Made by a program: the position numbers and the translations under genes
The notes under the pieces: model-generated
What the model saw: the letters and a program-made list of their open reading frames with translations, nothing else
Databases searched by the model: none
What the model was told of the DNA's origin: nothing
Shown: piece after piece, positions 8,898-52,079 of the stretch
Layout: every line of letters begins with the position of its first letter
Numbering within the stretch: position 1 is the stretch's first letter
Source of the DNA: Vicinamibacterales bacterium
GTDB lineage: Bacteria; Acidobacteriota; Vicinamibacteria; Vicinamibacterales; 2-12-FULL-66-21
Reading direction: 5' to 3'
Assembly: GCA_035699745.1 (NCBI GenBank)
Contig: DASSPH010000055.1
Coordinates: 62,001 to 126,000 of the forward strand
Length of the DNA stretch: 64,000 nt

Positions 8898-10325
8898 GTG
8901 GTTTTCAATTCCCTCCAGTTCCTCTGGTTCTTCGTCGTCGTCTACGGGCTCTACCGCGCGGCGGCGGCGCTGCTGCCGCCGCCCGGTGCGCGGCGCGCGC
9001 AGAACTGGCTGCTCCTCGTCGCCAGCTACTACTTCTACGCGGCATGGGACTACCGCTTCCTCGCCCTGCTGGCCGCCTCGACGCTGGTCGACTACACGTG
9101 CGGGCTGCTCATGGGCCGGACGTCGGATCGGGCGCGGCGACGGACGCTGCTGTGGCTGAGCATCGGCTTCAACCTGACGCTGCTCGGCTTCTTCAAGTAC
9201 TTCAATTTCTTCGCCGACAACCTCCACGCGCTGTTCGCCGCACTCGGCTGGCAACTCGACTTCGTGACCGTGCGCATCCTGCTGCCGATCGGGATCTCGT
9301 TCTACACCTTCGTGACGATGAGTTACGTCATCGACGTGTATCGCGGGGAGATCGAGCCGACGCGCAAGCTGGTGGACTTCGCGGTGTTCGTCGCGTACTT
9401 TCCCCACCTCGTCGCCGGCCCGATCCTGCGCGCGACGGCGCTGCTGCCGCAGATCGCCGGGATGCGCCGGATCACGCCGCAGCAGATGCGCGACGGCGCG
9501 TGGCTGTGCGCCTGGGGGTTCTTCCAGAAGATCTTCGTCGCCGACAACCTCGGTCCGCTGGTGTCGAAGGTGTTCGAGTCGGACACGCACCCTGCCGGCG
9601 TCAACGTCCTGCTCGCCACCTACGCGTTCGCATTCCAGATCTACGGCGACTTCGCCGGCTACTCGAACATCGCGCGGGGCACGTCGAAATGGATGGGGAT
9701 CGAGCTGATCGAGAACTTCCGCTTTCCCTACCTGGTGACGACGCCGCAGGCGTTCTGGCGTCACTGGCACATCAGCCTCTCGACCTGGCTGCGTGACTAC
9801 CTCTACATCCCGCTCGGCGGCAGCCGCGGCGGGGCGTGGAAGACGCGTCGCAACCTCTTCGTGACCATGCTGCTCGGCGGGCTGTGGCACGGCGCGGCAT
9901 GGACCTTCGTGCTCTGGGGGGTCTACCAGGGAATCCTGCTGATTCTCTACCGGCCGTTCGAGGCGGCGTTTTCGAAGCTGACCGCGGCCTGGCGCTTCGC
10001 CGCCTGGGCCGTCATGTTCCACCTGACGTGTTACGGCTGGCTCATCTTCCGGTCCACCTCGTTCGGGAAGCTTCGCGAGCTGACGGTCAGCCTGTTCACG
10101 CAGTTCGCGCCCGGGTCGGCCGACATTCCAGGCCTGCTCGTCCCGCTGCTCGTCTACACGGGTCCGCTGCTCATCGTCCATCTCCTCGAGGCGCGGGCAG
10201 ACGATGTCCTCGCCGTGCCGAGACTGCCGATCGGGGTGCGCTATACCATCTATGTAGCGACGCTCTATCTGATCCTGCTGTTCGGCAACTTCGGCGGTTC
10301 GGACTTCATCTACTTCCAGTTCTGA
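8898..10325 (+). CDS. MBOAT family O-acyltransferase (AlgI/PatA-like)
   Basis: 475 residues, starting with GTG, multi-spanning. The MBOAT signature is clear: 'ILLPIGISFYTFVTMSYVID', 'AYFPHLVAGPILR', 'FWRHWHISLSTWLRDYLYIP' and the putative catalytic histidine in 'LGGLWHGAAWTFVLWG'. AlgI-type proteins carry acyl groups (usually acetyl) across the membrane to a periplasmic SGNH partner, which here is encoded directly upstream. Together they predict O-acetylation of the exported polysaccharide or lipid-linked oligosaccharide. The stop codon shares one base with the start of the next gene. Confidence 0.93.
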   Translation: MVFNSLQFLWFFVVVYGLYRAAAALLPPPGARRAQNWLLLVASYYFYAAWDYRFLALLAASTLVDYTCGLLMGRTSDRARRRTLLWLSIGFNLTLLGFFKYFNFFADNLHALFAALGWQLDFVTVRILLPIGISFYTFVTMSYVIDVYRGEIEPTRKLVDFAVFVAYFPHLVAGPILRATALLPQIAGMRRITPQQMRDGAWLCAWGFFQKIFVADNLGPLVSKVFESDTHPAGVNVLLATYAFAFQIYGDFAGYSNIARGTSKWMGIELIENFRFPYLVTTPQAFWRHWHISLSTWLRDYLYIPLGGSRGGAWKTRRNLFVTMLLGGLWHGAAWTFVLWGVYQGILLILYRPFEAAFSKLTAAWRFAAWAVMFHLTCYGWLIFRSTSFGKLRELTVSLFTQFAPGSADIPGLLVPLLVYTGPLLIVHLLEARADDVLAVPRLPIGVRYTIYVATLYLILLFGNFGGSDFIYFQF

Positions 10326-12833: not shown

Positions 12834-13991
12834 ATGGCCCTGACCATCTACGATCGCCGCGAGCGGGCGCTCGTGACGCTCGCGGATGCGCTGCTCCAGC
12901 CGGCGGCCGTTCGACGCTTCTTCCGGCGCGGGCGGCCCGGGGCTCCCCGCCGCATCCTGTGCCTGCGGATCGAGCGCATCGGCGATCTCCTCATGACCCT
13001 GCCGGCGCTCGCCGAGTTGCGCGCGCTGGCGCCGGACGCGACGATCGATCTCGTGGTCGGCAGCTGGAACCGCGACATCGCGTCGGCAATCCCGGGCGTG
13101 AGCGCCGTCGAAACGCTGGACGCCGCCTGGCTGGCGCGCGGCGCGTCGGGGCGTTCACCGCTTGGGCTCGCCGCCCGCGCGGCGCGCTGGCGATCGCGCA
13201 AGTACGACCTCGCGATCAATTTCGAGCCGGACATCCGATCGAACGTGGCGCTGGCGGCATCCGGCGCCAGGCGGACGGCGGGGTTCCGCAGCGGCGGCGG
13301 CGGCCCGCTGCTCGACGTCGCGCTCGACTACGACCCGAGCCGGCACACCGCGGACAACGCCGTCCGCCTCGTGCGCGCCGCGCTGGGCGGATCTGCCGAA
13401 GCGGCACCGGCGACGCTGCAGATCCCCGATGCATCCCGCGCCGAGGCGGAACGGCTGCTGGCACCGCTCGGCACCCGCCTCAAGGCCGGCATGCATGTCA
13501 GCGGCGGCCGCGACGTGAAACAGTGGCCGGAGGCGCGATTCCGTGAAGTCGCCGAGCACCTGGTCCGCGATCGCTCCGCCGCCGTGGTGCTGACGGGCGC
13601 GCCCGCCGATCGGCCGCAGGTGGACCTCGTGCGCGCCGCCCTGCCGCCGGAACGCACGCTCGATCTCTCCGGCACCGCGAACCTCCTGACCGTCGCCGCC
13701 GTGATCCAGCAGCTCGACCTGTTCGTCACGGGCGATACCGGCCCGATGCACCTCGCGCACGCCGTCGGCACGCCGATCGTGGCGGTGTTCGGCCCGTCCG
13801 ACCCGCGGCGCTACGCGCCGCGCGGGCTGCGCGACGTGGTGGTGCGCATCGATCTGCCGTGCAGTCCGTGCAACCGCATCCGCCTGCCGCCGGCTCGCTG
13901 CACCGGCCACACGCCCGATTGCCTCGCCGGCATCGACGCCGCACAGGTGATCGCCGCGATCGACGACGTGCTCAGGGAGGCGGAGCGATGA
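12834..13991 (+). CDS. GT9 heptosyltransferase-like glycosyltransferase
   Basis: 385 residues. It has the GT9 N-terminal pattern 'RILCLRIERIGDLLMTLPAL' and the C-terminal ADP-sugar site 'DLFVTGDTGPMHLAHAVGTP' followed by 'VAVFGPSDPRRY'. GT9 enzymes include WaaC/WaaF, which add heptose to LPS core using ADP-heptose. A second conserved patch 'HVSGGRDVKQWPEARF' replaces the usual G-x3-K-x-WP element. A cysteine-rich tail ('CSPCNRIRLPPARC', then another Cys) also matches GT9 members. Its presence argues for an LPS-like or core-type oligosaccharide. The end overlaps the next gene by 4 bases. Confidence 0.88.
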   Translation: MALTIYDRRERALVTLADALLQPAAVRRFFRRGRPGAPRRILCLRIERIGDLLMTLPALAELRALAPDATIDLVVGSWNRDIASAIPGVSAVETLDAAWLARGASGRSPLGLAARAARWRSRKYDLAINFEPDIRSNVALAASGARRTAGFRSGGGGPLLDVALDYDPSRHTADNAVRLVRAALGGSAEAAPATLQIPDASRAEAERLLAPLGTRLKAGMHVSGGRDVKQWPEARFREVAEHLVRDRSAAVVLTGAPADRPQVDLVRAALPPERTLDLSGTANLLTVAAVIQQLDLFVTGDTGPMHLAHAVGTPIVAVFGPSDPRRYAPRGLRDVVVRIDLPCSPCNRIRLPPARCTGHTPDCLAGIDAAQVIAAIDDVLREAER

Positions 13992-15775
13992 TCCGCCTCG
14001 ACATCGAGTCCGGCACCGGGCCGCGGCGCATCGATCTGTTCTCGTATCTCGAGCCGGCCGACGAGGAGCGGGCGCAGGAGGACGCCTACGCGTGGATCAA
14101 GGCGGTGCGCCACCTGCGCGTCGACGGGCAGCGCTTCCGCTCGCGGTTCACGCTGCGGGGGGACTCGCTCTGGTGGTTCGCCGAGCTGTACCTCAACAAG
14201 CAGCAGGCGATCCTCACGGTGCTGCGCGCGCTCTCCGCGTTCGCCACCATGGCGGATCGCGAGCGCCCGCTCGCGGTCACGTGCGAGGACCGCGCCTACG
14301 GCGGCGTCATCGCCCAGGCCGCGGCCGCGCGGCGGATCCGGTACGCCGGCGCCGGCTGGCCCAGCGAGACCGGACGGCTGCTGCGCATGGAAGCGCGGGC
14401 GTCCGCGCTCGCGGCGGCGGCGCGGCTGTCGCGCCTGCGGGCCGGCCGCGCGGACGACAGGCAGGTCGCGATCGCGGCATTCGTGCACCGCGCGTTCTGG
14501 CGAAGCGGTGTGGAGGATGGGAGCGCGGAGTCATACATCGGTCCCGTCCTGCGCGAACTGGAAGCGCAGGTCGGACCGCCGGACATCCGCTACGTCGGGG
14601 TGGGTCCGCGGAGCAACTTCCGCGCGCGCCGCTGGTGGGACCCGATCGCCCCCGAGGCGGGCGCGGGCAGCGTCCCCGTCGAACGGTACGCCCCGTGGCC
14701 GGCGCTCGCGGCGGCGCGAGCGCTCTACCGCGAACGCCATGCGATCCGCCGCGCGATGTGGGGCAGCGCCGACCTGCGCGAACACGCCGTCATCCGCGGC
14801 TGCGACTGCTGGCCGCTGGTCAGGCACCAGCTGGCCGGGATCGCCCTGCTGCAGTTCACGTGGTCGGCCCGTGCCATGGACGAGGCCGCGGCCGCGCTCG
14901 ACCGGCTCCGCCCGAAGATCGCCGTCACCTACGCCGAAGCGGGCGGCTGGGGACGCGCGCTGGCGCTCGAGTGCCGCCGCCGCGGCGTTCCGCTCGCCGG
15001 GCTCCAGCATGGATTCATCTACCGCCACTGGCTGAACTACCGCCACGAGCCCGACGAAGCTCAGCCGGATCCGGACAACGCATCCGATCGCGGGTTTCCC
15101 TTCCCGGCGTCGACGCTGCTCTTCGACGAGCGAACGGCCGACCATCTGACGAGCGTTGGACGCTTTCCGCCGTCCGCGCTGCAGGTCACCGGCAGCCCCA
15201 GGCTCGACGAGATGCAGGCGTCCATCCGCGCGCTCGCGCCGGACGCCGTCGACGCGGCCCGGCAGCAGGCGGGCGCTGCCGGCCGCGCGCTCGTGGTCTT
15301 TGCCGCAAAGGAACGCGAAGCGCGCCGCTCGCTGCCGGCGCTGATCGCCGCGGTGCGCGCCATGCCCGACGTGCAGCTCGCGATCAAGCCCCACCCCGCC
15401 GAGACCCCCGAGGTGTATGCCTCAGCGGTCTCGGGCGCCGCCAACGTCTCTGTGCTGCCGGCGTCCGCGGCGCTCGCGCCGCTGCTCGCGGCCGCGCAGG
15501 CGATCGTGACGGTGAACTCGACCGTGGCGATCGACGGATTGACGCTCGGCGTCCCCTCCCTGGTGATCGGTCTGCCGAACAATCTCACCCCGTTCGTCGA
15601 CGCCGGTCTCATGGCCGGCGGGCGCACCGAGGAGGAAATCCGCGACGGGCTCGCGCGCGTCCTGTATGATCAGGAGTTCCGCAGCAGGATTCAGCGCAGC
15701 CGTGGAACGGAAGGCGGCCGGCCGGCCGCCGCGCGGTCCGCCGAGGCCATTCTGCGGATGACGGGAGCCAAGTAG
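13988..15775 (+). CDS. GT-B-fold surface carbohydrate protein (CDP-glycerol transferase/epimerase-like)
   Basis: 595 residues from ATG 13988. No catalytic family is obvious, but the C-terminal half is GT-B-like: 'LAGLQHGFIYRHWLNY', 'QVTGSPRLDEM', 'LAIKPHPAETPEVY' and 'IVTVNSTVAIDGLTLGVPSL' follow the pattern of CDP-glycerol glycerophosphotransferases and UDP-GlcNAc 2-epimerase-like proteins. The N-terminal 350 residues contain an Arg/Ala-rich region without recognisable motifs. It lies between a GT9 and a sugar epimerase gene with no spacing, so it probably assembles part of the same glycan. Substrate unknown. Confidence 0.7.
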   Translation: MIRLDIESGTGPRRIDLFSYLEPADEERAQEDAYAWIKAVRHLRVDGQRFRSRFTLRGDSLWWFAELYLNKQQAILTVLRALSAFATMADRERPLAVTCEDRAYGGVIAQAAAARRIRYAGAGWPSETGRLLRMEARASALAAAARLSRLRAGRADDRQVAIAAFVHRAFWRSGVEDGSAESYIGPVLRELEAQVGPPDIRYVGVGPRSNFRARRWWDPIAPEAGAGSVPVERYAPWPALAAARALYRERHAIRRAMWGSADLREHAVIRGCDCWPLVRHQLAGIALLQFTWSARAMDEAAAALDRLRPKIAVTYAEAGGWGRALALECRRRGVPLAGLQHGFIYRHWLNYRHEPDEAQPDPDNASDRGFPFPASTLLFDERTADHLTSVGRFPPSALQVTGSPRLDEMQASIRALAPDAVDAARQQAGAAGRALVVFAAKEREARRSLPALIAAVRAMPDVQLAIKPHPAETPEVYASAVSGAANVSVLPASAALAPLLAAAQAIVTVNSTVAIDGLTLGVPSLVIGLPNNLTPFVDAGLMAGGRTEEEIRDGLARVLYDQEFRSRIQRSRGTEGGRPAAARSAEAILRMTGAK

Positions 15776-42292: not shown

Positions 42293-43249
42293 ATGGCGAA
42301 AAAGAAGCCCGTACGTCGAAAGAAGGTGGCGGCTGGGACGGTCGGTCTCACCGCGCCCGAAACCGCCCGCGTCGCGGACGGGACGCTGGACGCGCTCGCC
42401 GGGCAGGTCGCCGCCGACGGCGGCAGCGTGCTCGGACGCTACAACGAGCCGTTCGGCGGACATCCGCTGCTCCTCGTGGCGCTGCCGATCTCGACGGTGG
42501 AGCCGACGCCCTACCAGCGCGATCCCTCCGACGCCCACGTGAAGCGCCTGATGACCGTGCTCGAGAAGATCGGGCTCTTCCTCGATCCGATCATCGCCAT
42601 CCATCACGAGGACAAGTACTGGACGCCGAACGGCAACCATCGCCTGCAGGCGCTGAGGAAGCTCGGCGGCAAGACCGTGATCGCGCTGCTGGTGCCCGAT
42701 GCCAGCGTCGCGTTCAAGATCCTCGCGCTCAACACGGAGAAGGCGCACAACCTGCGCGAGAAGTCGCTGGAAACCATCCGCATGGCGCGCGCGCTCGCCG
42801 GCGCCAGGACCTCCAAGGGGGAGCAGGAGTCGGCATTCGCCTTCGAATTCGAGCAGCCCGCGTTCCTCACGCTCGGCGCCGCGTACGAGGAGCGCCCGCG
42901 CCTCAGCGGCGGCGCCTACCAGTCGATCCTGCGCCGGGTGGACGAGTTCCTCGACGAACCGATCAGCGACGCGCTGAAGGAGCGCCTGCGCCGCGGCCGC
43001 AAGATCCTGAAGCTGGACGACGCGGTGAGCGCGGCGGTCGAGAAGCTGAAAGCGAAAGGACTGACCAGCCCGTATCTGAAACCGTTCGTCGTCGCGCGGG
43101 TGAACTACACCCGCTTCTCGAAGGCGACGTCGTTCGACTTCGACGAAGCGCTCGACCGGATCATCGCCTCGGCGCAGAAGTTCAACACCGACCGGGTGAG
43201 CCAGCAGGACGTGGCGAAGGTGGGCGGCGGACCGGCCGACGAGGAGTAG
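42293..43249 (+). CDS. ParB N-terminal-domain protein
   Basis: 318 residues. After a Lys/Arg-rich start ('MAKKKPVRRKKVAA') comes a ParB/Srx-type domain at about 60-165: 'TVEPTPYQRDPSDAHVKRLM', 'LFLDPIIAIHHEDKYW' and the nucleotide-binding box 'TPNGNHRLQALRKLGGKTV' in place of G-E-R-R. The remaining 150 residues are helical with no obvious helix-turn-helix. No ParA gene or parS-like palindrome is near, so a chromosome-partition role is doubtful; nuclease or CTP-switch functions exist in the wider family. It converges with gvpK with a 9-base gap. Confidence 0.8.
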   Translation: MAKKKPVRRKKVAAGTVGLTAPETARVADGTLDALAGQVAADGGSVLGRYNEPFGGHPLLLVALPISTVEPTPYQRDPSDAHVKRLMTVLEKIGLFLDPIIAIHHEDKYWTPNGNHRLQALRKLGGKTVIALLVPDASVAFKILALNTEKAHNLREKSLETIRMARALAGARTSKGEQESAFAFEFEQPAFLTLGAAYEERPRLSGGAYQSILRRVDEFLDEPISDALKERLRRGRKILKLDDAVSAAVEKLKAKGLTSPYLKPFVVARVNYTRFSKATSFDFDEALDRIIASAQKFNTDRVSQQDVAKVGGGPADEE

Positions 43250-43258
43250 AACCGGCCG

Positions 43259-43663
43259 CTACATCAACTTCCCGATCGGTCCGAGATCGAGATTCAACTC
43301 GTCCGGCGGAATGTCGAACTGCTTCGCCAGGTCGAGGATCGTGTCCTGCAGCCGCATCAGCGCGAGTCCGACTGCCTCGGTCTCGTCGCCGGTAAGCGTG
43401 CCCGCCTCCATGCGGCGGATTGCCTGGCGCTCCAGCAGCTGGCGGATCAACTCGACCAGGGTCAGTACCAGCTTCAACACCGACTTGCGCACGTCGTCAG
43501 GGTTCGCGTTCCATCGCGGCGGCGCGGCAGCCACGCCCTGGATCTGCTTCCTGATCGCTTCGATCTCGCGCGCCGCCGCGGGTTCGGCGCCCTTCCCCGC
43601 CGCGGGGCGCTTCGCCCGTCCGGCACCTCCTGCCCGTGTGACCCGCCTTGCGCCGCGCGTCAT
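43259..43663 (-). CDS. gvpK: Gas vesicle protein GvpK
   Basis: 134 residues from ATG 43663. The conserved GvpK core runs from about residue 55: 'VRKSVLKLVLTLVELIRQLL', 'RQAIRRMEAGTLTGDETEAV', 'LALMRLQDTILDLAKQF' and the closing 'DELNLDLGPIGKL', which is nearly diagnostic. GvpK is a small accessory protein needed for gas vesicle formation. The first 35 residues are an Arg/Lys/Ala-rich extension. It is the last gene of the operon and overlaps the upstream gvpF/L gene by 4 bases (ATGA). The same frame continues far upstream only as shadow. Confidence 0.93.
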   Translation of the reverse strand: MTRGARRVTRAGGAGRAKRPAAGKGAEPAAAREIEAIRKQIQGVAAAPPRWNANPDDVRKSVLKLVLTLVELIRQLLERQAIRRMEAGTLTGDETEAVGLALMRLQDTILDLAKQFDIPPDELNLDLGPIGKLM

Positions 43664-44328
43664 AGCAGTGCCGCCGCGAAGGCGAAGGGCGGCCACGGCC
43701 CCGTCACCGTCAATCGCGCATCCGCGTCGCTGAGCGCCGCGCCGAGCGCCGCGTAGCGTTTGACGGCGTCGCGCCGCACGAGGTGGTAAAGGGACTCGGG
43801 CGTCGTCGCGGTGGCCGGCTGATAGCGCTCCGCCGCGACGAGCGGCGCCAGCTTGCGGCGCAGCGGCCGCCACGCCGGCGGCGGCGCCGCCCTGGCGGCT
43901 CTCGCGGCGCGGCGCAGGTACTCCGCGCCGGACGGCTCCCCTTCTCTGAGTGAACGGGCCGCGCGCGGAGGCGAGGATTTCGCGTGCGGGGCGGTCCGGC
44001 GCCGCCACGTGAACTGCACTTTCCCGCGGACCGCTGCGAGCGCGTCCGCGATCTCGGCGCCGCGATCCTCGAGCACCTCGTCGATTGCCGCATCGTCCAG
44101 CAGCGTGCCGAAGCGGACCGGCAGGATGGCGGGAACGCGCTCGGCAAGCTGCGCGACGACGTCCTGGTGGCGCTGCAGTGGCGCGAATTCCGCGGGAGGC
44201 ACATCCGCCCGTCGCTCGACCACGGCGAATCCGCCGGGGATCGGGCGCAATCCGAGCGCGCCCGACAACCCCTTGCCTTTCGCGCCGCGCGGCGGCGCAT
44301 CGACCAGCGCGAACACGTACCACGCCAT
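43660..44328 (-). CDS. Gas vesicle protein GvpF/GvpL family (copy 1)
   Basis: 222 residues from ATG 44328. The N-terminal 'WYVFALVDAPPRGAKGKGL' and middle 'HQDVVAQLAERVPAILPVRF' match GvpL/GvpF ('vlPvrFGt' is the family core: here 'ILPVRFGTLLDDAAIDEVL'). The C-terminus 'DARLTVTGPWPPFAF' ends with the family motif TGPWPPY/F. The central part is an Ala/Arg-rich helical region. GvpF/L proteins chaperone or line the growing vesicle. The start overlaps the stop of the gvpJ-like gene (TGATG), so translation is coupled. Confidence 0.9.
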   Translation of the reverse strand: MAWYVFALVDAPPRGAKGKGLSGALGLRPIPGGFAVVERRADVPPAEFAPLQRHQDVVAQLAERVPAILPVRFGTLLDDAAIDEVLEDRGAEIADALAAVRGKVQFTWRRRTAPHAKSSPPRAARSLREGEPSGAEYLRRAARAARAAPPPAWRPLRRKLAPLVAAERYQPATATTPESLYHLVRRDAVKRYAALGAALSDADARLTVTGPWPPFAFAAALL

Positions 44329-44720
44329 CAGGGATGTCTGCGCCGCACCGGCAGGATGCGATCCGCCGCACAGAGCAGCGCCGAGAGGCGGACGTAGACG
44401 AGGTCGACGTTCGCCAGGGCGAGGATGAGATCGGCGTTGAGAACGACCCCCTTGCCGAGCAGGTTGTCGATCAGATCGAGCAGCGTCGACTCCTCGTCCC
44501 CCTCGACGATGCGCGCGGCGCGGCGGCTGGCGGGACTCGCGGACTTCGGCGCTCTGACGGAGAGCTTCGCCGGGGCGACCCGCGCGGCGGGCCTGGGCGA
44601 GTCGGGACGCGGCGGCGGCGGTTCCGCCGGCACCGTCGAGAGACGCGGGCTGGCGACGGCGGTGGACGCCTTGCGCGCCGGCTTGAGAGGAGCGGCCCTG
44701 CCGGCCCGTGCCCGTTTCAC
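44328..44720 (-). CDS. GvpA/GvpJ-family gas vesicle protein with long basic N-terminal tail
   Basis: 130 residues from GTG 44720. Residues 78-125 are the GvpA/J core: 'STLLDLIDNLLGKGVVLNAD' and 'LALANVDLVYVRLSALL', closest in feel to GvpJ/GvpS minor proteins ('D-L-V-Y-V'). The first 75 residues are an unusual Pro/Ala/Lys/Arg-rich, probably disordered tail. In related clusters such minor shell proteins cap or nucleate vesicles. It overlaps both neighbours (GTGA upstream, TGATG downstream). Confidence 0.88.
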   Translation of the reverse strand: MKRARAGRAAPLKPARKASTAVASPRLSTVPAEPPPPRPDSPRPAARVAPAKLSVRAPKSASPASRRAARIVEGDEESTLLDLIDNLLGKGVVLNADLILALANVDLVYVRLSALLCAADRILPVRRRHP

Positions 44721-45493
44721 GCGGGATCACCGACGAAGTTGTAGGCGGGCCACGGCCCGGTGAGCGCGAGATCGGCCGCGGCACGGTCGCAGGCAGACGC
44801 CTGGCGGCGTGCTTCGGCTTTGAACCTGGCGCGTGCTGAGAGCGGCACGAGGAACGCGGCCTCGAGCACCGGCGGGTTGGTCCCAGGCTCGGGCCGGCGA
44901 TCGCGGGCCGTCGCCTCGCGCGCGTGTCTGGCGAGAGCGTGGAACGCCGCTTCCGCGGCCGCGCTCGCCGCCGTTCTCGCGCTGGCGGCCGCATCGCGGG
45001 CCGCCTTGCGCGATGCGAGGAACGCCGCACCCGTCATCGGCGCCGGGCGCGGACTCTCCTCCGCGGACGGCGCGACGGGGCGCCGCGTCACGCGGATGCC
45101 CCACTCCTCGGCGCCGGCGATCCGCTTCATCACCCGCTCGATGGAGGCGCGCCGGGCCGCCACGTCCGCAATTGCCTTGTCGACGGACGAGAACAGCGTG
45201 AACAGCTTCGCCGGAATGACCGCGGAGCCCTTCGGGCGCGAGAAGAACTCGACTACGGCTTCGTGTCCGACCGCGGCGGTCGCGACCCAGTCCAGATCCT
45301 GAAGCCGAGGCTCGAGCCTGCCCGGACCGTACTGCGCCAGCGGTACGTCGGCGGCGATCAGCCAAAGCCCCTTGCCGGCCTCGTGCGCCTCCGGCCGCGA
45401 GGCGCCGCCGAGCCCGTGCGGCGCGCGCGCGGCCGCCGGGCGCCGCGCGCTCTTGACCACGCAGTAGAGATAGGTCGCGGAGTCCTTGGCCAT
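44717..45493 (-). CDS. Gas vesicle protein GvpF/GvpL family (copy 2)
   Basis: 258 residues from ATG 45493. Seen: 'ATYLYCVVKSARRPAAARAP' opening, 'HEAVVEFFSRPKGSAVIPAK' with 'LFTLFSSVDKAIADV' (the position of the 'PxxFGT' core, here diverged to PAKLFTLF), and the end 'LALTGPWPAYNFV', the GvpF/L signature. The middle has a long Ala-rich helical stretch. It is the most diverged of the three copies in this operon. Its start overlaps the stop of the ATPase gene (TGATG), which suggests stoichiometric coupling. Confidence 0.9.
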   Translation of the reverse strand: MAKDSATYLYCVVKSARRPAAARAPHGLGGASRPEAHEAGKGLWLIAADVPLAQYGPGRLEPRLQDLDWVATAAVGHEAVVEFFSRPKGSAVIPAKLFTLFSSVDKAIADVAARRASIERVMKRIAGAEEWGIRVTRRPVAPSAEESPRPAPMTGAAFLASRKAARDAAASARTAASAAAEAAFHALARHAREATARDRRPEPGTNPPVLEAAFLVPLSARARFKAEARRQASACDRAAADLALTGPWPAYNFVGDPA

Positions 45494-47502
45494 CAGGTGA
45501 GCCGCCACGCGGTCCGCCACGCCGACAGCGCGGCGGCGCCGTGCGGCGGCGGGATCTCGGCCGGCGTCTCGATGATAGCGTAACCATCGGCGGCGACCGC
45601 GGCGCGCAGCCGGGCGATGGCCCGCCTCTGTTCGGCGAGGGCGGCGCGGCACAGGCCGCACTCGCCCCGGCCGACCGCGTTGACGACGACCCCGCCCACA
45701 TGAACCCCGATCGGGCGGAGCGCCGCGATCAGCTCCATGGATTCGGCAATCGGGACGGCAGCGGCGCGCGTCACCACGATGAACCGCGACTGAGCGGGAT
45801 CCGCAAGAACGCTCTGCAGGCCGCGCAGCCGTTTCGAGAGCTGCACCAGCAGCGATGCAAGCGTGCCGGCGCCGACGATTTCGCGGTACTTGAGCAGAAT
45901 CGCCATGAGCGCGAGCGCCCAGTCGCGAAGTACCGCCGGCGTGTGCAGCAGCCGCAGCGCGTGGCCGGTCGGCGCCGTGTCGGCAATGACGACGTCGTAG
46001 CGGCTCTGCGGTCCGATCGCCGACTCCGCCACCTCCGCGACCGCCATCACCTCGTCGATGCCCGGCGGCGCGAGATCGATGAGGTCGCGGAACGCGGCCC
46101 GGTCGCCCGACGCGGTGCGCGCGATCCGCGCGAACGCTTCGTCGACCGCGGCGATGTATCTGTCTCGGAAACGCGCCATCTCCGCGGCGGCGTCGATCTC
46201 GCGCACCAGCAGGGCCGGCGGACCGCCGGGAACGGGACGCGGCACGTTGTCGAAGCGCGCGCCGAAGACGTCGCCGAGCGAGTGGGCCGGATCGGTCGAC
46301 AGCAGCAGCACCCGCGCGGTCCGCGCGAGATCGAGCGCGGCCGCTGCAGCGCACGTCGATTTGCCCACGCCCCCTTTGCCGCCGAACAGGATCAGCTTCC
46401 GGTTCACGCCGGAAGCCGCCTGCTGGCGCGGCTGGCGAGACCGGCTGGCTCGGGAGTTCAGACGGTGTCCGGCTTCAGCGGGACCATCGAGGGGCGCCAT
46501 CCTCACCCGGCGCTCCAGGCGACGCGGGGTCGCGGCGGCGCGCCACGGCGCGAGGTCCTTGAACGCCGCCCGCAGCGCCGCAACGCCGCGCGGCTCGTGG
46601 CGGCGCTCGGGAAAGGCCAGGAGCTCGCGTCCGCCGAACCGTCGCGCTGCCGGCGCGAGTGCCCGCGACTCGAAGGCTTGCCGGGCGGTGCACCAGGTGC
46701 ACGGCCCCTCCGGCTCGGGCGTCATCCGGTTGACGATCACGCGCGACACCGTGATGCCGCTCCGCTCCAGCGCGGCCAACGCGTCGGCGGTCTCTTCCAG
46801 CGCCATCGGCTCCGGCAGGGTGATCCAGGTCAGCCGGGTGCGCTGCCTGTCGCGCAGCAGACGCGACAGCGCCGTGCCTTCCGCGTCGAGCTCCTGGATC
46901 ATCGCGTCTGCGGCGTCGGCGCGGTAGCCGCCGCGCAGGGCGCTGACGACCGCGCGGTGATGGGCCTGGAGCGAATCGAGCAGGATCGCGACGCGCCCGA
47001 GCAGCGCCGGCGCCGCGAGCAGCCGCAGGGTATGGCCGGTCGGCGCGGTATCGACGACGACCGTGTCGAACGCTCCGCCGTGCTCCTCCGCCCCCGCGAG
47101 CCGCACGACCTCCATCAGGCCGATCACTTCGTCGATCCCGGGCAGCGACAGCTTCAGCAGCCGGGACACGTCCTCATCGTCCAGATACGTGCCGCGAACC
47201 GCGATCGCCGCCAGCAGCCCGCGGCGGCGCGCCAGCCAGCGATCGAACGCACGGCGCGCATCCACGTTCGCCGCATACAACTGCCGCGCGCCCGGTACGG
47301 CCGACGGTTCGGCGGCGACGGAGGCGTTCAGGACGTCGGACAGCGAGGAGGCAGGATCGGTGGTGACGAGAAGCGTGGGGCCCCGCGACGCGGCGTCGAT
47401 CGCAGCCATGGCGGCGTGCGTGGTCTTGCCGACCCCACCCTTGCCGCCGACGAACTCGAACGACCGTACTGCCGTCCGTGTTGCGTCGTCCGTCTTGGTC
47501 AG
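45493..47502 (-). CDS. Tandem Get3/ArsA-type ATPase in the gas vesicle operon
   Basis: About 669 residues if translation starts at CTG 47502. Two Get3/ArsA units are fused: P-loop 1 'VGGKGGVGKTTHAA' (residues 18-31), switch 'VVDTAPTGHTLRLL' (about 150), C268-x2-C271 in 'EGPCTWCTARQ'; P-loop 2 'FGGKGGVGKSTCAA' (about 373), 'IADTAPTGHALRLL' (about 508), C615-x2-C618 in 'GECGLCRAALAEQ'. CxxC pairs bind zinc in the Get3 dimer; ArsA of arsenic pumps differs. The first ATG (47409) lies after P-loop 1 and no ATG, GTG or TTG in frame precedes it; CTG 47502 overlaps the gvpG stop. A linker repeat lies at 46461-46492. A role in delivering hydrophobic vesicle proteins is inference. Confidence 0.85.
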   Translation of the reverse strand: MTKTDDATRTAVRSFEFVGGKGGVGKTTHAAMAAIDAASRGPTLLVTTDPASSLSDVLNASVAAEPSAVPGARQLYAANVDARRAFDRWLARRRGLLAAIAVRGTYLDDEDVSRLLKLSLPGIDEVIGLMEVVRLAGAEEHGGAFDTVVVDTAPTGHTLRLLAAPALLGRVAILLDSLQAHHRAVVSALRGGYRADAADAMIQELDAEGTALSRLLRDRQRTRLTWITLPEPMALEETADALAALERSGITVSRVIVNRMTPEPEGPCTWCTARQAFESRALAPAARRFGGRELLAFPERRHEPRGVAALRAAFKDLAPWRAAATPRRLERRVRMAPLDGPAEAGHRLNSRASRSRQPRQQAASGVNRKLILFGGKGGVGKSTCAAAAALDLARTARVLLLSTDPAHSLGDVFGARFDNVPRPVPGGPPALLVREIDAAAEMARFRDRYIAAVDEAFARIARTASGDRAAFRDLIDLAPPGIDEVMAVAEVAESAIGPQSRYDVVIADTAPTGHALRLLHTPAVLRDWALALMAILLKYREIVGAGTLASLLVQLSKRLRGLQSVLADPAQSRFIVVTRAAAVPIAESMELIAALRPIGVHVGGVVVNAVGRGECGLCRAALAEQRRAIARLRAAVAADGYAIIETPAEIPPPHGAAALSAWRTAWRLT
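46461..46492. repeat. Repeat-like insert in the ATPase linker
   Basis: Between the two ATPase halves the minus strand codes for Leu-Asp-Gly-Pro-Ala-Glu-Ala-Gly-His. From memory, the same peptide and DNA (GTCCGGCTTCAGCGGGACC-type) recurs at many gene ends in Acidobacteriota-like genomes. No second copy is seen in this window, so the call rests on recall. Confidence 0.4.
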
Positions 47503-47798
47503 TGTTCGTCGCCTTCGAACGTGGCTTCGATCCCGGTGACCTTCATGTCCTTCGGCGAAATCGCGGCCGGCTCGCCGCCGCGCCGGCGCTCCTTGATCTC
47601 GCGGATGCGGGCCAGGATCTCGGTCTCGAGCTCGTCGAACTCGTCCTGCGACAGCTCGCCGAGCTCGAGCCGCATCTGGGCGTCCAGCAGCCGCTCGCGC
47701 AGCACGCCGTCGTCGTTCAGCTCGCTCTCGACCGCCGCCGCCAGCTTGTCGAGGACGAACCGCACGCCCGAGATGATCAGGGAGTCGATGATCAGCAC
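47499..47798 (-). CDS. gvpG: Gas vesicle protein GvpG
   Basis: 99 residues from GTG 47798. The GvpG pattern is plain: 'LIISGVRFVLDKLAAAVESE' (amphipathic start), 'LNDDGVLRERLLDAQMRLEL', 'GELSQDEFDELETEILARIR' and 'EIKERRRG'. GvpG is a small, charged, helical accessory protein required for vesicle assembly and usually lies next to gvpF. Here it directly follows a gvpF/L gene (TAGTG overlap). The last 25 residues are a short extension. The stop overlaps the probable CTG start of the ATPase gene. Confidence 0.92.
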   Translation of the reverse strand: MLIIDSLIISGVRFVLDKLAAAVESELNDDGVLRERLLDAQMRLELGELSQDEFDELETEILARIREIKERRRGGEPAAISPKDMKVTGIEATFEGDEH

Positions 47799-48727
47799 TA
47801 ATGCGCGCGTTCGAGCTTCAGCCGGATGTTGACGAAGTTGTACGGCGGCCAGGGTCCGGTGTACTTGAAGGTCAGCTTCTCGTATTGCTGGCCGATTTCC
47901 TTGACCCGCGAGTCGAACGCCTGCTCCATCTCCCGCGAGACGAGGAACGCGGCGTTCATGATCATGCGGTCGCCGATCGGCTTGTTCGATCGCGAGGCGA
48001 CCGAGACGTCGCGCAGCGAGTTGAAGATCTCGGCGACGTAGCGCTCGGTGCGCGACTGCAGCGCCGCGTCGATCAGCCGCCCGTACTGCATGCGGGCGAA
48101 ATAGGTCGAGCCCTTCTGCGAGGAGATCTCGCTCTTCAGCCGGCGGATGTCCTCGTCCTCGTCCTCGATCTCGCGGATGATCTGGTCGCGATCCCAGAGC
48201 ACTTTGAGGCCGAACTCGAACTTCTCCTGCATCTTGTTCAGCACGTCGCTGAACGCGTCGTAGGCGGAGCGCAGCAGCTCCATGATGTCGTCCTCCGTCT
48301 TGAAGACGGTGCCGAACGACATCGGGATGACGGTGTGCTTCTGCATGACCGTCTCGTTGACCCGCTGGTGCGCCAGCACGTTCTCGCGGGTCGGATCCTG
48401 GACGACGATCGGCGTGCTCGAGACGACGGCGCAGATGTCGCGATAGTGAATGGTGTGAACTTCGGCGGGCTCGGGGCCGAGGCCGAGCGGACCGAAGCTG
48501 AGCGGCGTCTCCGAGCGGATGACGCAGTAGACGTATTTGCCTTCGCTGCCGTCCTCGCGCTTGGGGGACGGCACTCTCACCCGTTCCAGCTTGCCGCGCG
48601 CCGCCTGCTGCCGCGCGGCGGCCGTCTCCGCCTTGCGGCCGGCTGCCGCCTTGGCCGGCGGGGTCCCTTTTCGGGCGCCTTTCGCCGCGGCCTTCCGGGC
48701 CGGCTTCTTCGCTGCAGTCTTCGCCAT
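47798..48727 (-). CDS. Gas vesicle protein GvpF/GvpL family (copy 3) with histone-like N-terminal tail
   Basis: 309 residues from ATG 48727. Residues 1-60 are Lys/Ala/Arg-rich ('AKTAAKKPARKAAAKGARKG'), like H1 or HU tails. The core follows: 'GKYVYCVIRSETPLSFGPLG', 'HTIHYRDICAVVSSTPIV', 'HQRVNETVMQKHTVIPMSFG' (the family core with FGT), a coiled-coil 'REIEDEDEDIRRLKSEI' and the ending 'LTFKYTGPWPPYNFVNI'. This is the most canonical GvpF/L of the three. It lies 21 bases after the response regulator gene. Confidence 0.93.
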   Translation of the reverse strand: MAKTAAKKPARKAAAKGARKGTPPAKAAAGRKAETAAARQQAARGKLERVRVPSPKREDGSEGKYVYCVIRSETPLSFGPLGLGPEPAEVHTIHYRDICAVVSSTPIVVQDPTRENVLAHQRVNETVMQKHTVIPMSFGTVFKTEDDIMELLRSAYDAFSDVLNKMQEKFEFGLKVLWDRDQIIREIEDEDEDIRRLKSEISSQKGSTYFARMQYGRLIDAALQSRTERYVAEIFNSLRDVSVASRSNKPIGDRMIMNAAFLVSREMEQAFDSRVKEIGQQYEKLTFKYTGPWPPYNFVNIRLKLERAH

Positions 48728-48747
48728 AGGTCCGCTCTGTCTGTGCT

Positions 48748-49206
48748 TCAAGTCCGCTTCCGGATGGTCTTCGCCCGTGCCGGATCGCCCGTATTGTCCG
48801 CCTTCCCGCGGTGATCTTCCAGCAGCCGCCGGATCTCGGCGACCAGCGCGTCGGGCAGGCATGGCTTGGTCACGAACGCGTCGCAGCCGGCGTCGCGCGC
48901 CCCCTCGGCGTGGCCGGCCAGCGCATGCCCGGTGAGGGCGACGATCGGGATGTGCCGCGTGCGATCGTCGTTCTTCAGCCGCCGTGTCGCCTCCCATCCG
49001 TCCATGCGCGGCAGCGCGAGATCCATCAGGACGATGTCCGGCAGGAGTTCGTGGGTCTTCTCGATCGCCTCGATGCCGTTGCCGGCTTCCGCCACCGCGA
49101 AGCCGGAGAACTGCAGGTAGGCGGCGTACATCTCACGCGCGTCCTGGTAGTCCTCCACGACCAGCACCAGCGGTTGGGAACGCGTCCGCGCCGACGTCGG
49201 GCTCAT
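48748..49206 (-). CDS. Single-domain response regulator (gas vesicle operon)
   Basis: 152 residues: one receiver domain and a short basic tail. The acidic pair is in '[15 protein letters not shown]', the phospho-acceptor is D62 in '[20 protein letters not shown]', T92 is in '[15 protein letters not shown]' and K114 in '[13 protein letters not shown]'. No DNA-binding output follows, so it acts by protein contact, like CheY or Spo0F, or feeds a phosphorelay. Its start overlaps the stop of the histidine kinase gene by 4 bases, so they form a cognate pair. It is placed between gvpA and gvpF/L. Confidence 0.93.
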
Positions 49207-51332
49207 CTCCGCCGCCCTTTCGCCGGCAGCCGCAGCGTGAACGTCGATCCTTTGCCGGCGGTGCTCTCGAGGTCGATCGATCCTCCCAGGATGTTGGCGA
49301 GGCGCCGGCAGATCGACAGGCCGAGGCCGGTGCCGCCATAGCCCCGCGCCGGCGACGTGTCCAGCTGGCGGAAGTCCTCGAACACCTTCGCTTGATCCTC
49401 CGGCGGGATCCCGACGCCGGTGTCGCGCACCGCGATGGCGACCTGCTTCGCGCGTCCGTCATACGACGCGGTCATCGTCACCGACCCGGCGGGCGTGAAC
49501 TTGAGGGCGTTGCTCAACAGGTTGAGGACGATCTGCTTGACCTTCTGCCGGTCGGAGCGCAGCGTCGGCACCGCGCCGCGCACCCTGGTCGTGACCGTCA
49601 GATTCGACCGCTTGATGATCGGCTCGAGCTCCGCCTGCACCTCCTCGAACAGCTCCTTGATGCCGAACGAGGTCGCGTTCAGCGGCATCCGTCCCGCTTC
49701 GATGCGGGTGATGTCGAGAATGTCGTTGATCAGCGCGAGCAGGTGCCGCGAGTTCGAGTCGATGCGCGTCAGGCTCTTGCGCTGCGGCTCGGTGACCTGG
49801 CCGGTCACGTTGTTCAGCAGCATGTGCGTGTAGCCGAGGATCGCGTTCAGCGGCGTGCGGAACTCGTGCGACATGTTGGCGAGGAACTGCGACTTCAGCG
49901 CCGAGGCCTGCTCCAGCTCGATGTGCTGCCGCCGCAGCAGCTCGTTCTGTTCGGCGAGCTCCGCGGTCGCCTCCTGGACCTTGCGTTCGAGCTCCACCGA
50001 CGCCTGCTTCAACTGTTCGTAGAGGCGCGCCTTCTCGATCGCTTCCGTCAGATCGTGCAGGATGGTGACGACCCACATCAACTCGCCCTGCTCCGACAGG
50101 ATCGTCCCCGCGACCGCCTCCACCGGCAGCGGCCGGCCGGTCAGCGGATCGCCGAGCTGAATCTCGCCGCGGTAGCGCTGCTCGCCGGATCGGGTGAGCA
50201 CGTTCGACACGAACGACGTCAGGTTGGCGCCGTTGGCGCGCACGCGCCGCAGCGTCCCTTCGTCGTCCACCCCCGGGGCGTTGAACAGCCGCTCCGCCGG
50301 CGTGTTCATCAGCACGATGTCCCCCTCCTGGTCGGTGACCAGGATGGGATCGGCGACCGAGTCGATGATCAGATCGAGCCGGTGGCGCTCGTCGCGCACT
50401 TCCGCCTGGGCGATCCGCAGCGTGCGGTAGCTCTCCTCGATCTCCTCCTTGGCGCGCGCCAGGTCGGTGACGTTGCGGAGAATCGAGACCACGTAGGTGC
50501 CCTGCCGCTCGTCCTTCGCGCGCGAGCTGAGAAGCTCGAACAGGAGGTCGGACCCCTCCAGCGGATCGACCAGCAGCAGCTCGCGGCGCGACAGCGCGGT
50601 CATGCCGACGGCGCTGGTCGACAGCGCCGCCGAGAAGAGCATGTTGTTGAGCGCCGCGGCGCGGCGCCAGCCTTCGCTGGCTTCCTCGGGAGCGGCGAAC
50701 AGCTTTTCCGCGTGGCTGTTCGCGATGATCAACTTTCCTTCGGTATCGGTCAGCAGGATCGGGTCGGTGACGGCGTTGATGATGCTGTAGAGCAGCATCC
50801 GCTCCTGGCCGAACCGGGTCTCGGCCAGCATCTGGCGGCCGAGCAGGCGCGACACCTGCTTGCCCAGCGTGCGCGCGAGCCATAGCGTCTCGGAATCGAT
50901 GTGGGGTCCGGGGCCGGCGACCAGCAGCAGGCCATGGACCGGCTCGTGCGGCTCGGCGCGGAGCGGGATGGCGTGAAAGCCGCGCGATTCGAGCGGGACC
51001 CGGAAGTGCGCCGGCACCGCATCGAAATACACCGGCGTCGCCTCGGCGAGCGTCTGGATGAGGGGATGGCCGGTGTCTTCCCGATTCAGCGCGAAGTCCA
51101 TGATGGCGCCGCTCGAGATGCCGTGCTCGGCGACCAGCAGCATGGCGCTCGACACCCCCTCGGCGACGAGGACGGCGGCTTCCGTGACGGGGGCGTGGGC
51201 GGCGAGCCAGTCGACGGCGCGCCGCGCCGATTCCTGGACGTCGATGCTCGTCAGCAGAAACTCGACCAAGGCGAGCTTCGCGTCCGACTCCACGGCTTGA
51301 ACCGGCGCCACCGGAACGGCGACGCGTGCCAC
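49203..51332 (-). CDS. Soluble GAF-PAS-PAS sensor histidine kinase
   Basis: 709 residues from GTG 51332. No transmembrane segment or signal peptide is seen. A GAF-like domain (about 20-165) is followed by PAS 1 ('[20 protein letters not shown]', about 185) and PAS 2 ('[20 protein letters not shown]', about 330), a coiled coil ('[20 protein letters not shown]') and the kinase core: H489 in '[16 protein letters not shown]', N box '[13 protein letters not shown]', G1 '[12 protein letters not shown]' and G2 '[15 protein letters not shown]'. It would sense a cytosolic signal and phosphorylate the adjacent regulator. It starts seven bases after the gvpA stop, so it shares the vesicle transcript. 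Confidence 0.93.
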
Positions 51333-51338
51333 CGTGGC

Positions 51339-51665
51339 TTAGCCCTCGTCTGAGGCGCGGCGGCGCTTCGGCCGCGCGACCTTGGATGCGGCCAGTTCGG
51401 CGCGGAGCGCGGCGTTCTCGGCGACGACGTCCTGGTGCGACGGCAGTTCCGCCGCCGGCCGCGAGACCGGCGCGACCTGGCCGACCGCCTCGGAGTACTT
51501 CAAGTAGGTATCGATCGACGCCACGACCACGCGGGCCTCGACGGTGATCAGATCGATGCCCACCAGCGACACGCGCACCCACGCATCGATGACGATGCCC
51601 TTGTCGAGCACGCGATCGAGGACGTCGATGAGACTGGTGCCGCCTGCAGCGCGTTCAACTGCCAT
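51339..51665 (-). CDS. gvpA: Gas vesicle shell protein GvpA with C-terminal extension
   Basis: 108 residues from ATG 51665, longer than the usual 70-75. Residues 10-60 are the nearly invariant GvpA core: '[20 protein letters not shown]', '[20 protein letters not shown]' and '[11 protein letters not shown]'. This is the main subunit that polymerises into the gas-permeable shell. Residues 75-95 ('[18 protein letters not shown]') look like a short coiled coil and the tail '[14 protein letters not shown]' is basic. An AGGAG Shine-Dalgarno element at 51672-51676, six bases before ATG, is the strongest in the operon and fits high expression. Confidence 0.96.
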
Positions 51666-51692
51666 GCTGTACTCCTGCCTCCCAGAATCGAA

Positions 51693-52040
51693 TCAGCGGC
51701 GCCGCCGCCCCGCGGCGCGCGGCTTGCCGTTGGTCGCAAGTGTGAGCGCCGCGACGCGCTCCTGCAGTTGGCGGACCTCCGCGCGAAGATCCGCATGCTC
51801 GCCGGCCAGGTCACGCACCGCGCCCGGCGACAGATCACGATCGTAGCGCCACCAATCCAGCCCGATTTCCTGCGCCTTGTCGAGGGAGCAGACGAGGAGC
51901 CGGATGCGGATGGTGAGCAGCTCGACTTCGGCGAGCGAGACCTTGATGTCGCCGGCGATGACCAGGCCCTTGTCGAGCACCCGATCGAGCACATCTACGA
52001 GTCCGGTGGCGCGATGGGACCCTGGGAGCTCGAGAGCCAT
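51693..52040 (-). CDS. gvpJ: GvpJ/GvpS-like minor gas vesicle shell protein
   Basis: 115 residues from ATG 52040; the frame continues to 52079 but that start would lie upstream of the promoter. The GvpA-family core is at 13-60: '[20 protein letters not shown]', 'KVSLAEVELLTIRIRLLVCS', then 'LDKAQEIGLDWW', which marks the J/S type rather than A. Residues 78-100 ('EHADLRAEVRQLQERVAALT') form a likely coiled coil, and the end is 'GKPRAAGRRRR'. The same layout as GvpA suggests both carry outward tails. It is the first gene of the operon. Confidence 0.9.
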   Translation of the reverse strand: MALELPGSHRATGLVDVLDRVLDKGLVIAGDIKVSLAEVELLTIRIRLLVCSLDKAQEIGLDWWRYDRDLSPGAVRDLAGEHADLRAEVRQLQERVAALTLATNGKPRAAGRRRR

Positions 52041-52049
52041 GAATCTCGG

Positions 52050-52079
52050 ACTATATCCCGACGCTCGACGCGGAAGCAA
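52050..52079 (-). promoter_or_regulatory. Promoter of the gas vesicle operon
   Basis: Read on the minus strand: TTGCTT (52079-52074), 18-base spacer, TATAGT (52055-52050). Transcription would start near 52043, about three bases before ATG 52040, so the first gene is nearly leaderless. It lies in the 45-base gap after the acyl-CoA ligase gene. Confidence 0.6.

Follow-up and report, generated by a model that had tools for sequence, protein, structure and literature searches.

A gas-vesicle operon with an embedded histidine kinase, a receiver-only regulator and a Get3-like ATPase in a Vicinamibacterales bacterium, and its relatives in five phyla

The window analysed here, a stretch of 64,000 nucleotides from contig DASSPH010000055.1 of the Vicinamibacterales bacterium assembly GCA_035699745.1, contains at positions 43259-52040 eleven minus-strand genes that form one packed gas-vesicle (gvp) operon, as indicated by open reading frames and Pfam searches. 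A preliminary description, made from the letters alone, had already delineated this operon, and the coordinates and Pfam matches confirm all of the genes as they had been placed. In the 5' to 3' order of the operon, the genes and one notable part of a gene product are the following:

gvpJ1: 51693..52040, minus strand; GvpA/J-domain protein of 115 aa from ATG, heading the operon in relatives too; PF00741 62.2 bits (scored on the longer form; an alternative TTG start at 52079 gives 128 aa)
gvpA, main shell protein: 51339..51665, minus strand; 108 aa; PF00741 61.4 bits; NF006874 113.1 bits (cut-off 100)
C-terminal tail of GvpA past the core of about 62 residues: 51342..51479, minus strand; a stretch of 10 residues (letters not shown) and a basic end; ENxxL motif
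histidine kinase (HK): 49203..51332, minus strand; 709 aa; GAF-like part, PAS domain with a long conserved helix insert, second PAS domain, HisKA, HATPase (Pfam, model, alignment)
response regulator (RR): 48748..49206, minus strand; 152 aa, receiver domain only; PF00072 88.1 bits; start overlapping the kinase stop
gvpF1 (GvpF/L): 47798..48727, minus strand; PF06386 257.5 bits; 59-77% identity to seven relatives
gvpG: 47499..47798, minus strand; GTG start overlapping the gvpF1 stop; PF05120 57.8 bits
double Get3/ArsA-type ATPase: 45493..47502, minus strand; about 669 aa from a putative CTG start; P-loop and CxxC in each half; PF02374 302.9 bits
gvpF2 (GvpF/L): 44717..45493, minus strand; PF06386 119.8 bits
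gvpJ2, GvpA-domain paralogue with a long N-terminal extension: 44328..44720, minus strand; PF00741 44.4 bits, residues 79-117
gvpF3 (GvpF/L): 43660..44328, minus strand; PF06386 80.1 bits
gvpK: 43259..43663, minus strand; PF05121 106.3 bits

Neighbouring genes overlap by 1-4 nt at seven of the ten junctions, and the remaining gaps measure 27, 6 and 20 nt. The Pfam cut-offs for the two families found three times each are 25 bits (PF00741) and 23.6 bits (PF06386); the kinase matched HisKA, HATPase_c and PAS, and the regulator matched Response_reg alone. Among the operon proteins, Pfam revealed neither a DNA-binding gene product nor an NtrC-type GvrA regulator. Promoter and terminator scans yielded nothing above chance, and the RNA 3' of gvpK folded no better than shuffled sequences.

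The embedded two-component system noticed at first sight is borne out by a HisKA/HATPase kinase with its catalytic residues and by the adjacent receiver gene: residues H489, E490, T493, N604, D637 and G641 of the kinase are invariant in 36 sequences, and D19, D62, T92 and K114 of the receiver are retained in at least 90% of 40 aligned sequences. In the kinase model (mean pLDDT 78.8, pTM 0.34), a GAF-like N-terminus is followed by two PAS domains, with long helices between them, and then by the kinase core. The fold search with this model returned matches mainly to the kinase part, so the GAF assignment is based on how helices and strands are predicted to follow one another and on a Pfam match to GAF in the relative L061. 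Column identity averages 0.47 in the GAF-like part, 0.74 in PAS1 (0.81 in its helix insert, residues 219-242), 0.68 in PAS2, 0.82 in HisKA and 0.67 in the catalytic domain; judged by these values, both PAS domains are conserved as well as the catalytic domain, and the GAF-like part less so. The highest 19-residue hydropathy is 1.67, and the usual warning level for a membrane helix is 1.6; since this borderline segment falls on predicted strands of the GAF-like part, the kinase is probably cytosolic. The receivers at this operon position have no output domain, DNA-binding or other, in the 40-sequence alignment, and a regulator without a DNA-binding part would be expected to work by contact or within a relay. 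In the locus L061 of the gp4/Pyrinomonadaceae type (12900-14597), a REC-HK-REC hybrid follows the kinase and replaces the lone receiver.

The preliminary description knew of no other cluster with this kinase, regulator and ATPase set; a comparison of related loci shows that the set is not peculiar to its host. Relatives were obtained by aligning GvpF1 against named genome contigs, and the best 80 of 180 confirmed relatives were compared; their titles name Acidobacteria, Myxococcota or Deltaproteobacteria, Rokubacteria, Planctomycetota and Gemmatimonadota. The kinase sensor is present in 53 of these loci, 50 of which also have gvpA and gvpF1; those without gvpA are L088, L127 and L109, the sequence of the last beginning inside the kinase, at the end of the stretch. 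In these 50 loci the order is gvpA-HK-RR-gvpF in 33, gvpA-HK-gvpF in one and rotated (gvpF...gvpA-HK) in 16, and the kinase adjoins gvpA in 49 of the 56 loci with at least 2.2 kb of sequence after gvpA (two of 58 gvpA loci, with less, were dropped from this count). Thus, by gene content and order, the operon is to be placed in a conserved cluster class spanning five phyla. The locus L124, whose title gives no phylum, was counted as Acidobacteriota and groups with Gemmatimonadota in the tree. The host itself, judged by the named relatives closest to it, is probably a member of Acidobacteriota subgroup 6. Within the phylum of the host, a PF00741 match occurs in only 23 of 396 genomes, and in the host family in 10 of 12, the two exceptions being 57% and 87% complete. 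Some of the 80 loci and some of the surveyed genomes come from the same assemblies, so the surveys are not independent, and the counts are uncorrected for kinship.

A profile made of the two PAS domains of the kinase (the kinase-sensor profile) matched in eight of the 396 phylum genomes, namely in seven of the 23 with a PF00741 match versus one of the 373 without (Fisher 6.6e-9). Six of these eight matches adjoin gvpA, one lies in a gvp cluster without gvpA (genome G293) and one by a lone GvpL/F gene (G257). The 100 relatives of the host gave 17 matches, 15 of them within about 1 kb of a PF00741 gene; the others are in G293, where the kinase is on the same contig as the genome's own gvpJ2, and in G433. 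The G433 locus (L180, 4433-6862) comprises a frame resembling a GvpA tail just upstream of a shortened kinase, and a receiver, with no other gvp gene in the 15 kb read, and can be read as a decayed gvp cluster. The trees of the kinase sensor and of GvpF1 agree (Mantel r 0.948, 53 rows, 0 of 2000 permutations). Taken at the level of sequence comparison, the sensor family is almost confined to gvp loci, and the pair is co-inherited with gvpF1.

At three loci the kinase stands beside GvpF/L genes without gvpA. The G293 locus (L088, 6057-13700) has the order HK-RR-F-G-F-J-F-K, where gvpJ2 is the sole PF00741 match and a DUF892 gene upstream of the kinase takes the place of gvpA and gvpJ1. In G257 (L158, 7452-11348), whose genome has no PF00741 match, the kinase is flanked by a divergent GvpL/F (60.6 bits) on one side and a receiver-only regulator on the other. 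In the gemmatimonadotal locus L127 (9962-12957), gvpF1 is followed by the kinase, and 20.8 kb contained no gvpA and no further gvp family except weak GvpF1-like pieces; the same genome has a full cluster elsewhere (L134). A GvpF2-like frame matching in two pieces was also seen beside a receiver of the gas-vesicle type (155 bits) in L167 (5605-6939; genome G362, no PF00741 match). More generally, a GvpL/F match occurs in 66 of the 396 phylum genomes, 44 of them without a PF00741 match and 41 of those 44 in family f19, whose genomes mostly have a single GvpL/F gene of about 160-194 bits (e.g., L161, 5774-6523, and L162, 6075-6842). From this distribution, GvpL/F seems to have a use without vesicles.

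The absence of gvpN, whose AAA+ product is common in gas-vesicle clusters, was noted earlier for the operon and holds for the whole host genome (6.3 Mb, 110 contigs, 100% complete), where the best TIGR02640 match has 25.5 bits versus a cut-off of 266.8 and none was found at E≤1e-20; two GvpN queries likewise gave no match of at least 25 bits in the 80 relative loci. Among the 37 Acidobacteriota genomes with a PF00741 match that the two surveys gave together, 18 have the kinase, 11 have GvpN and none has both (hypergeometric 8.8e-5, a descriptive value with related genomes counted separately). The claim that gvpC, the gene of an optional outer protein, is missing stands in part: a genome-wide search found no recognisable GvpC (no PF01304 match at E≤1), but this is not final, GvpC being so variable and poorly conserved that it could escape the profile. 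The missing gvpN is no argument against gas vesicles, because gvpN mutants of Serratia still form small bicones, as do gvpV mutants (PMC4982088; this paper, PMC2963123 and PMC11999139 are cited throughout from excerpts).

The ATPase is clearly a double Get3/ArsA-type protein, as proposed at the outset: PF02374 matches in two stretches, both P-loops are intact, and TIGR00345 (TRC40/GET3/ArsA) gives 348.1 bits versus a cut-off of 135. Its start is placed near 47502, at a CTG that overlaps the stop codon of gvpG, since a protein begun at the first ATG/GTG/TTG (47409) would be without its first P-loop; 13 of the 39 relatives where the site is readable also have no ATG/GTG/TTG within the 90 nt before the first P-loop. 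The model (pLDDT 84.5, pTM 0.84) superimposes on Get3 (PDB code 3zq6) with a Z-score of 30.2 and 2.7 Å over 276 residues and, with both halves, on ArsA (9nbw) with a Z-score of 30.1 and 3.7 Å over 532 residues. Each half has one CxxC; the first cysteine is kept in 28 of 34 rows in each half and the second in 27 and 26 of 34. In Get3, such a CxxC pair has a role in the zinc site. The fold and the CxxC of each half are shared with the Get3/TRC40 chaperones of tail-anchored proteins, from which the window ATPase differs in being two fused halves, as in ArsA. A function in arsenic handling was rejected: the arsenical pump family TIGR04291 gives only 193.9 bits versus a cut-off of 650, and C384 is the sole cysteine besides those of the CxxC motifs. 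By its profile scores and motifs the ATPase is Get3-like and not arsenite-type, and it may act as a chaperone for hydrophobic GvpA-type subunits. The idea that it strictly substitutes for GvpN is weakened, since G293 and G317 have neither protein and G073 and G121 have GvpN plus an ArsA-type gene; GvpN alongside an ArsA-type gene is described from other phyla too (PMC2963123).

GvpA of the window has a canonical core, matching the solved shell proteins 8gbs (E 1.6e-24, residues 1-70) and 7r1c (E 2.8e-21), and it extends about 46 residues beyond that core. In loci with room after gvpA, the coiled-coil-type ENxxL stretch of this tail occurs in 42 of 49 kinase-bearing versus none of seven kinase-less loci, an association that follows clades and was counted without correction for descent. 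It is absent in four of the five Acidobacteriota-labelled loci of the gp4/Pyrinomonadaceae type, which have the kinase and no lone receiver. In eight of the nine GvpN-bearing genomes among the 396, GvpA is matched best by a frame of 70-78 aa, which leaves no room for a coiled-coil-like tail of this kind. GvpJ1 also has a coiled-coil-like C-terminal tail, which is present in kinase-less loci too. The tail of GvpA may replace GvpC as a stiffener of the shell, or it may bind GvpJ1 or serve as a docking site for the kinase. An extra GvpA-like gene (105 aa) was noticed in G399 (L183, about position 10000), on a contig other than that of the main cluster.

As to the surroundings, a convergent gene of 318 aa at window positions 42293-43249, with no Pfam match at E≤0.01, ends 9 bp from the gvpK stop. 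A search for neighbour genes around the relatives, which used stop-to-stop frames with shadow frames included, mainly recovered synteny within lineages and, in 12 of the 80 loci, NtrC-like genes. NtrC-like genes 5-9 kb before gvpF1 were seen in L080, L086, L087, L094, L101, L093, L095 and L098 (Myxococcota, Planctomycetota, Rokubacteria), with domains checked in L080 only. Sigma-54 control of the loci with NtrC-like neighbours is possible.

To our knowledge, the gvp cluster of Streptomyces coelicolor has no kinase or ATPase. That cluster shares with the window the lack of gvpN and the soil habitat, and its GvpA is reportedly strongly unlike that of vesicle-forming species, whereas GvpA of the window is canonical (PMC4982088). 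A closer parallel is Serratia sp. ATCC 39006, in which A1, A2, A3, F1, F2, F3, G and K are the eight individually essential gvp genes (PMC4982088). Both systems have three GvpA-type proteins, three GvpF, GvpG and GvpK, and both encode regulators within the cluster; Serratia also has GvpN, GvpV, GvpC and, in a second operon, the transcriptional regulators GvrA-C (PMC4982088), whereas the window has a single operon with no GvpN, no recognisable GvpC, a kinase with a receiver-only regulator, and a Get3-like ATPase. In Cereibacter sphaeroides, the CckA/ChpT/CtrA system controls the gas-vesicle genes (PMC11999139).

The proposal that the kinase-regulator-ATPase set has no precedent can be kept for the kinase-regulator pair, which was not found in openly licensed papers, but not for the link between the ATPase and gvp genes, as gvp operons with two-domain ArsA homologues have been known since 2010 (PMC2963123). 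What those operons have in common with the window is the two-domain ArsA/Get3 ATPase within a gvp operon; in the excerpted text, an acidobacterial one is listed with two L/F genes and J, K and M genes and no gvpN, and the clusters of Bacteroidetes/Chlorobi include gvpN, which the window operon lacks (PMC2963123). No openly licensed paper combining the terms 'gas vesicle', 'ArsA' and 'histidine kinase' was found, so that paper, as far as its excerpts go, does not name the kinase. Nor did openly licensed papers yield any report of gvp operons from these phyla with a built-in HK-RR pair, though one may exist behind a subscription. In its architecture the regulator is presumably akin to the DivK/CheY-like single-domain response regulators, which likewise have only a receiver, with its phosphorylation residues intact; it differs from them in being encoded between a gas-vesicle shell gene and gvpF1.

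The firm part of these results is comparative: a dedicated kinase family, present in five phyla and showing no overlap with GvpN in the compared genomes. The mechanism that we infer, and to which we would give an even chance of being right, is that in this GvpN-less class, with no recognisable GvpC, a cytosolic kinase and a receiver-only regulator steer vesicle assembly by protein contact, most likely with GvpF/L. A shell of GvpA would be built on a nucleus of GvpJ1, GvpJ2, GvpF1-F3, GvpG and GvpK, while the Get3-like ATPase would shield or deliver the hydrophobic GvpA-type subunits. With its GAF-like domain and its two PAS domains the kinase would sense a signal in the cytosol, and it would set the phosphorylation state of the regulator, which, having no DNA-binding part, would permit or stop assembly by contact. 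The intact signalling residues of both proteins count for such control of assembly. A GvpF/L protein would be the likeliest contact, given that gvpF1 follows the regulator gene in 33 loci and that the kinase is retained next to GvpF/L at three loci devoid of gvpA. Real gas vesicles, perhaps small ones, are likely, since the gene set equals the eight essential gvp genes of Serratia. They might, as the preliminary description suggested, serve a purpose other than flotation.

Several observations weigh against assembly control by contact as a general scheme. Seven clusters have no kinase (they belong to a single clade, with gp7 and Thermoanaerobaculia among its titles), so the kinase-receiver pair is not required in every such cluster. 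Of the 56 loci with gvpG and a subsequent gvpF or gvpJ, 46 have the ATPase and ten do not, and G293 and G317 lack both the ATPase (E≤1e-10) and GvpN (E≤1e-20); hence the ATPase is not indispensable to every such cluster either. The contact with GvpF/L is deduced from gene order and from the three loci without gvpA, and at those same loci the pair has been kept with no shell gene in view, which means that its role may extend beyond vesicle assembly. A regulator with only a receiver can also be one step in a relay whose final output is transcription.

The last point leads to an alternative that we regard as possible, if doubtful: the pair would govern transcription of the operon via an outside partner, through a relay to a DNA-binding regulator, and assembly itself would be uncontrolled. 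The known gas-vesicle regulators GvrA, GvrB and GvrC of Serratia do act on transcription (PMC4982088), 12 of 80 loci have NtrC-like genes no more than 10 kb from gvpF1 (the one in L080 encodes receiver, sigma-54 and Fis domains), and the hybrid protein of L061 would fit a relay. On the other side, the window operon has no DNA-binding gene and the receivers at this place have no output domain, the pair is located inside the operon between the shell gene and gvpF1, and three gvpA-less loci have kept the kinase by GvpF/L.

It is unlikely that the cluster is cryptic or that its product is a protein assembly other than a gas-filled vesicle, as has been suspected for Streptomyces coelicolor. A depth in cm or soil is mentioned in 24 of the 80 relative titles and groundwater in three (the habitat of the remainder was unchecked), and a use in flotation is not obvious there; openly licensed papers yielded no report of vesicles for this class, and the G293 cluster has no recognisable gvpA. 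Yet the GvpA core is canonical, the reading frames of the three A-type, three F-type, G and K genes in the window are unbroken, members of these families also turn up in relatives from five phyla, and the host family has kept a GvpA-family gene in 10 of its 12 genomes.

The association of the ENxxL tails with the kinase would fit another, rather improbable scheme, in which the shell is a signalling part and the kinase or receiver docks on the tails of GvpA (and GvpJ1) at the cytosolic face, sensing the assembly or collapse of vesicles. This scheme has to contend with the three loci that keep the kinase without gvpA, which disfavour docking as the kinase's only role, with the GvpJ1 tails of kinase-less loci, with the lack of the motif in most of the gp4/Pyrinomonadaceae-type loci, and with the clade-bound distribution of tails that may instead stiffen the shell in place of GvpC. 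Its boldest form would be a long shot: the vesicle shell as a signalling surface whose tails display the kinase or receiver, so that growth, or collapse under turgor or pressure, would alter kinase output and make the vesicle a mechanosensor in soil bacteria. Two-component genes are common, but a chance insertion unrelated to vesicles is hardly credible, since the gvpA-HK-RR-gvpF order recurs in 33 of 50 informative relatives, which excludes a chance grouping, and the sensor family is near-exclusive to gvp loci, with congruent trees.

Gas vesicles are usually seen as flotation devices of water microbes, controlled at the level of transcription. The kinase-carrying gvp operons of five phyla, many of them from soil, suggest an undescribed way of gas-vesicle control. 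A kinase family that travels with vesicle genes makes it testable why soil bacteria keep vesicles and whether phosphorylation switches their assembly, and an operon of eleven genes, with neither GvpN nor a recognisable GvpC among them, might also serve as a compact acoustic reporter under the control of a signal.

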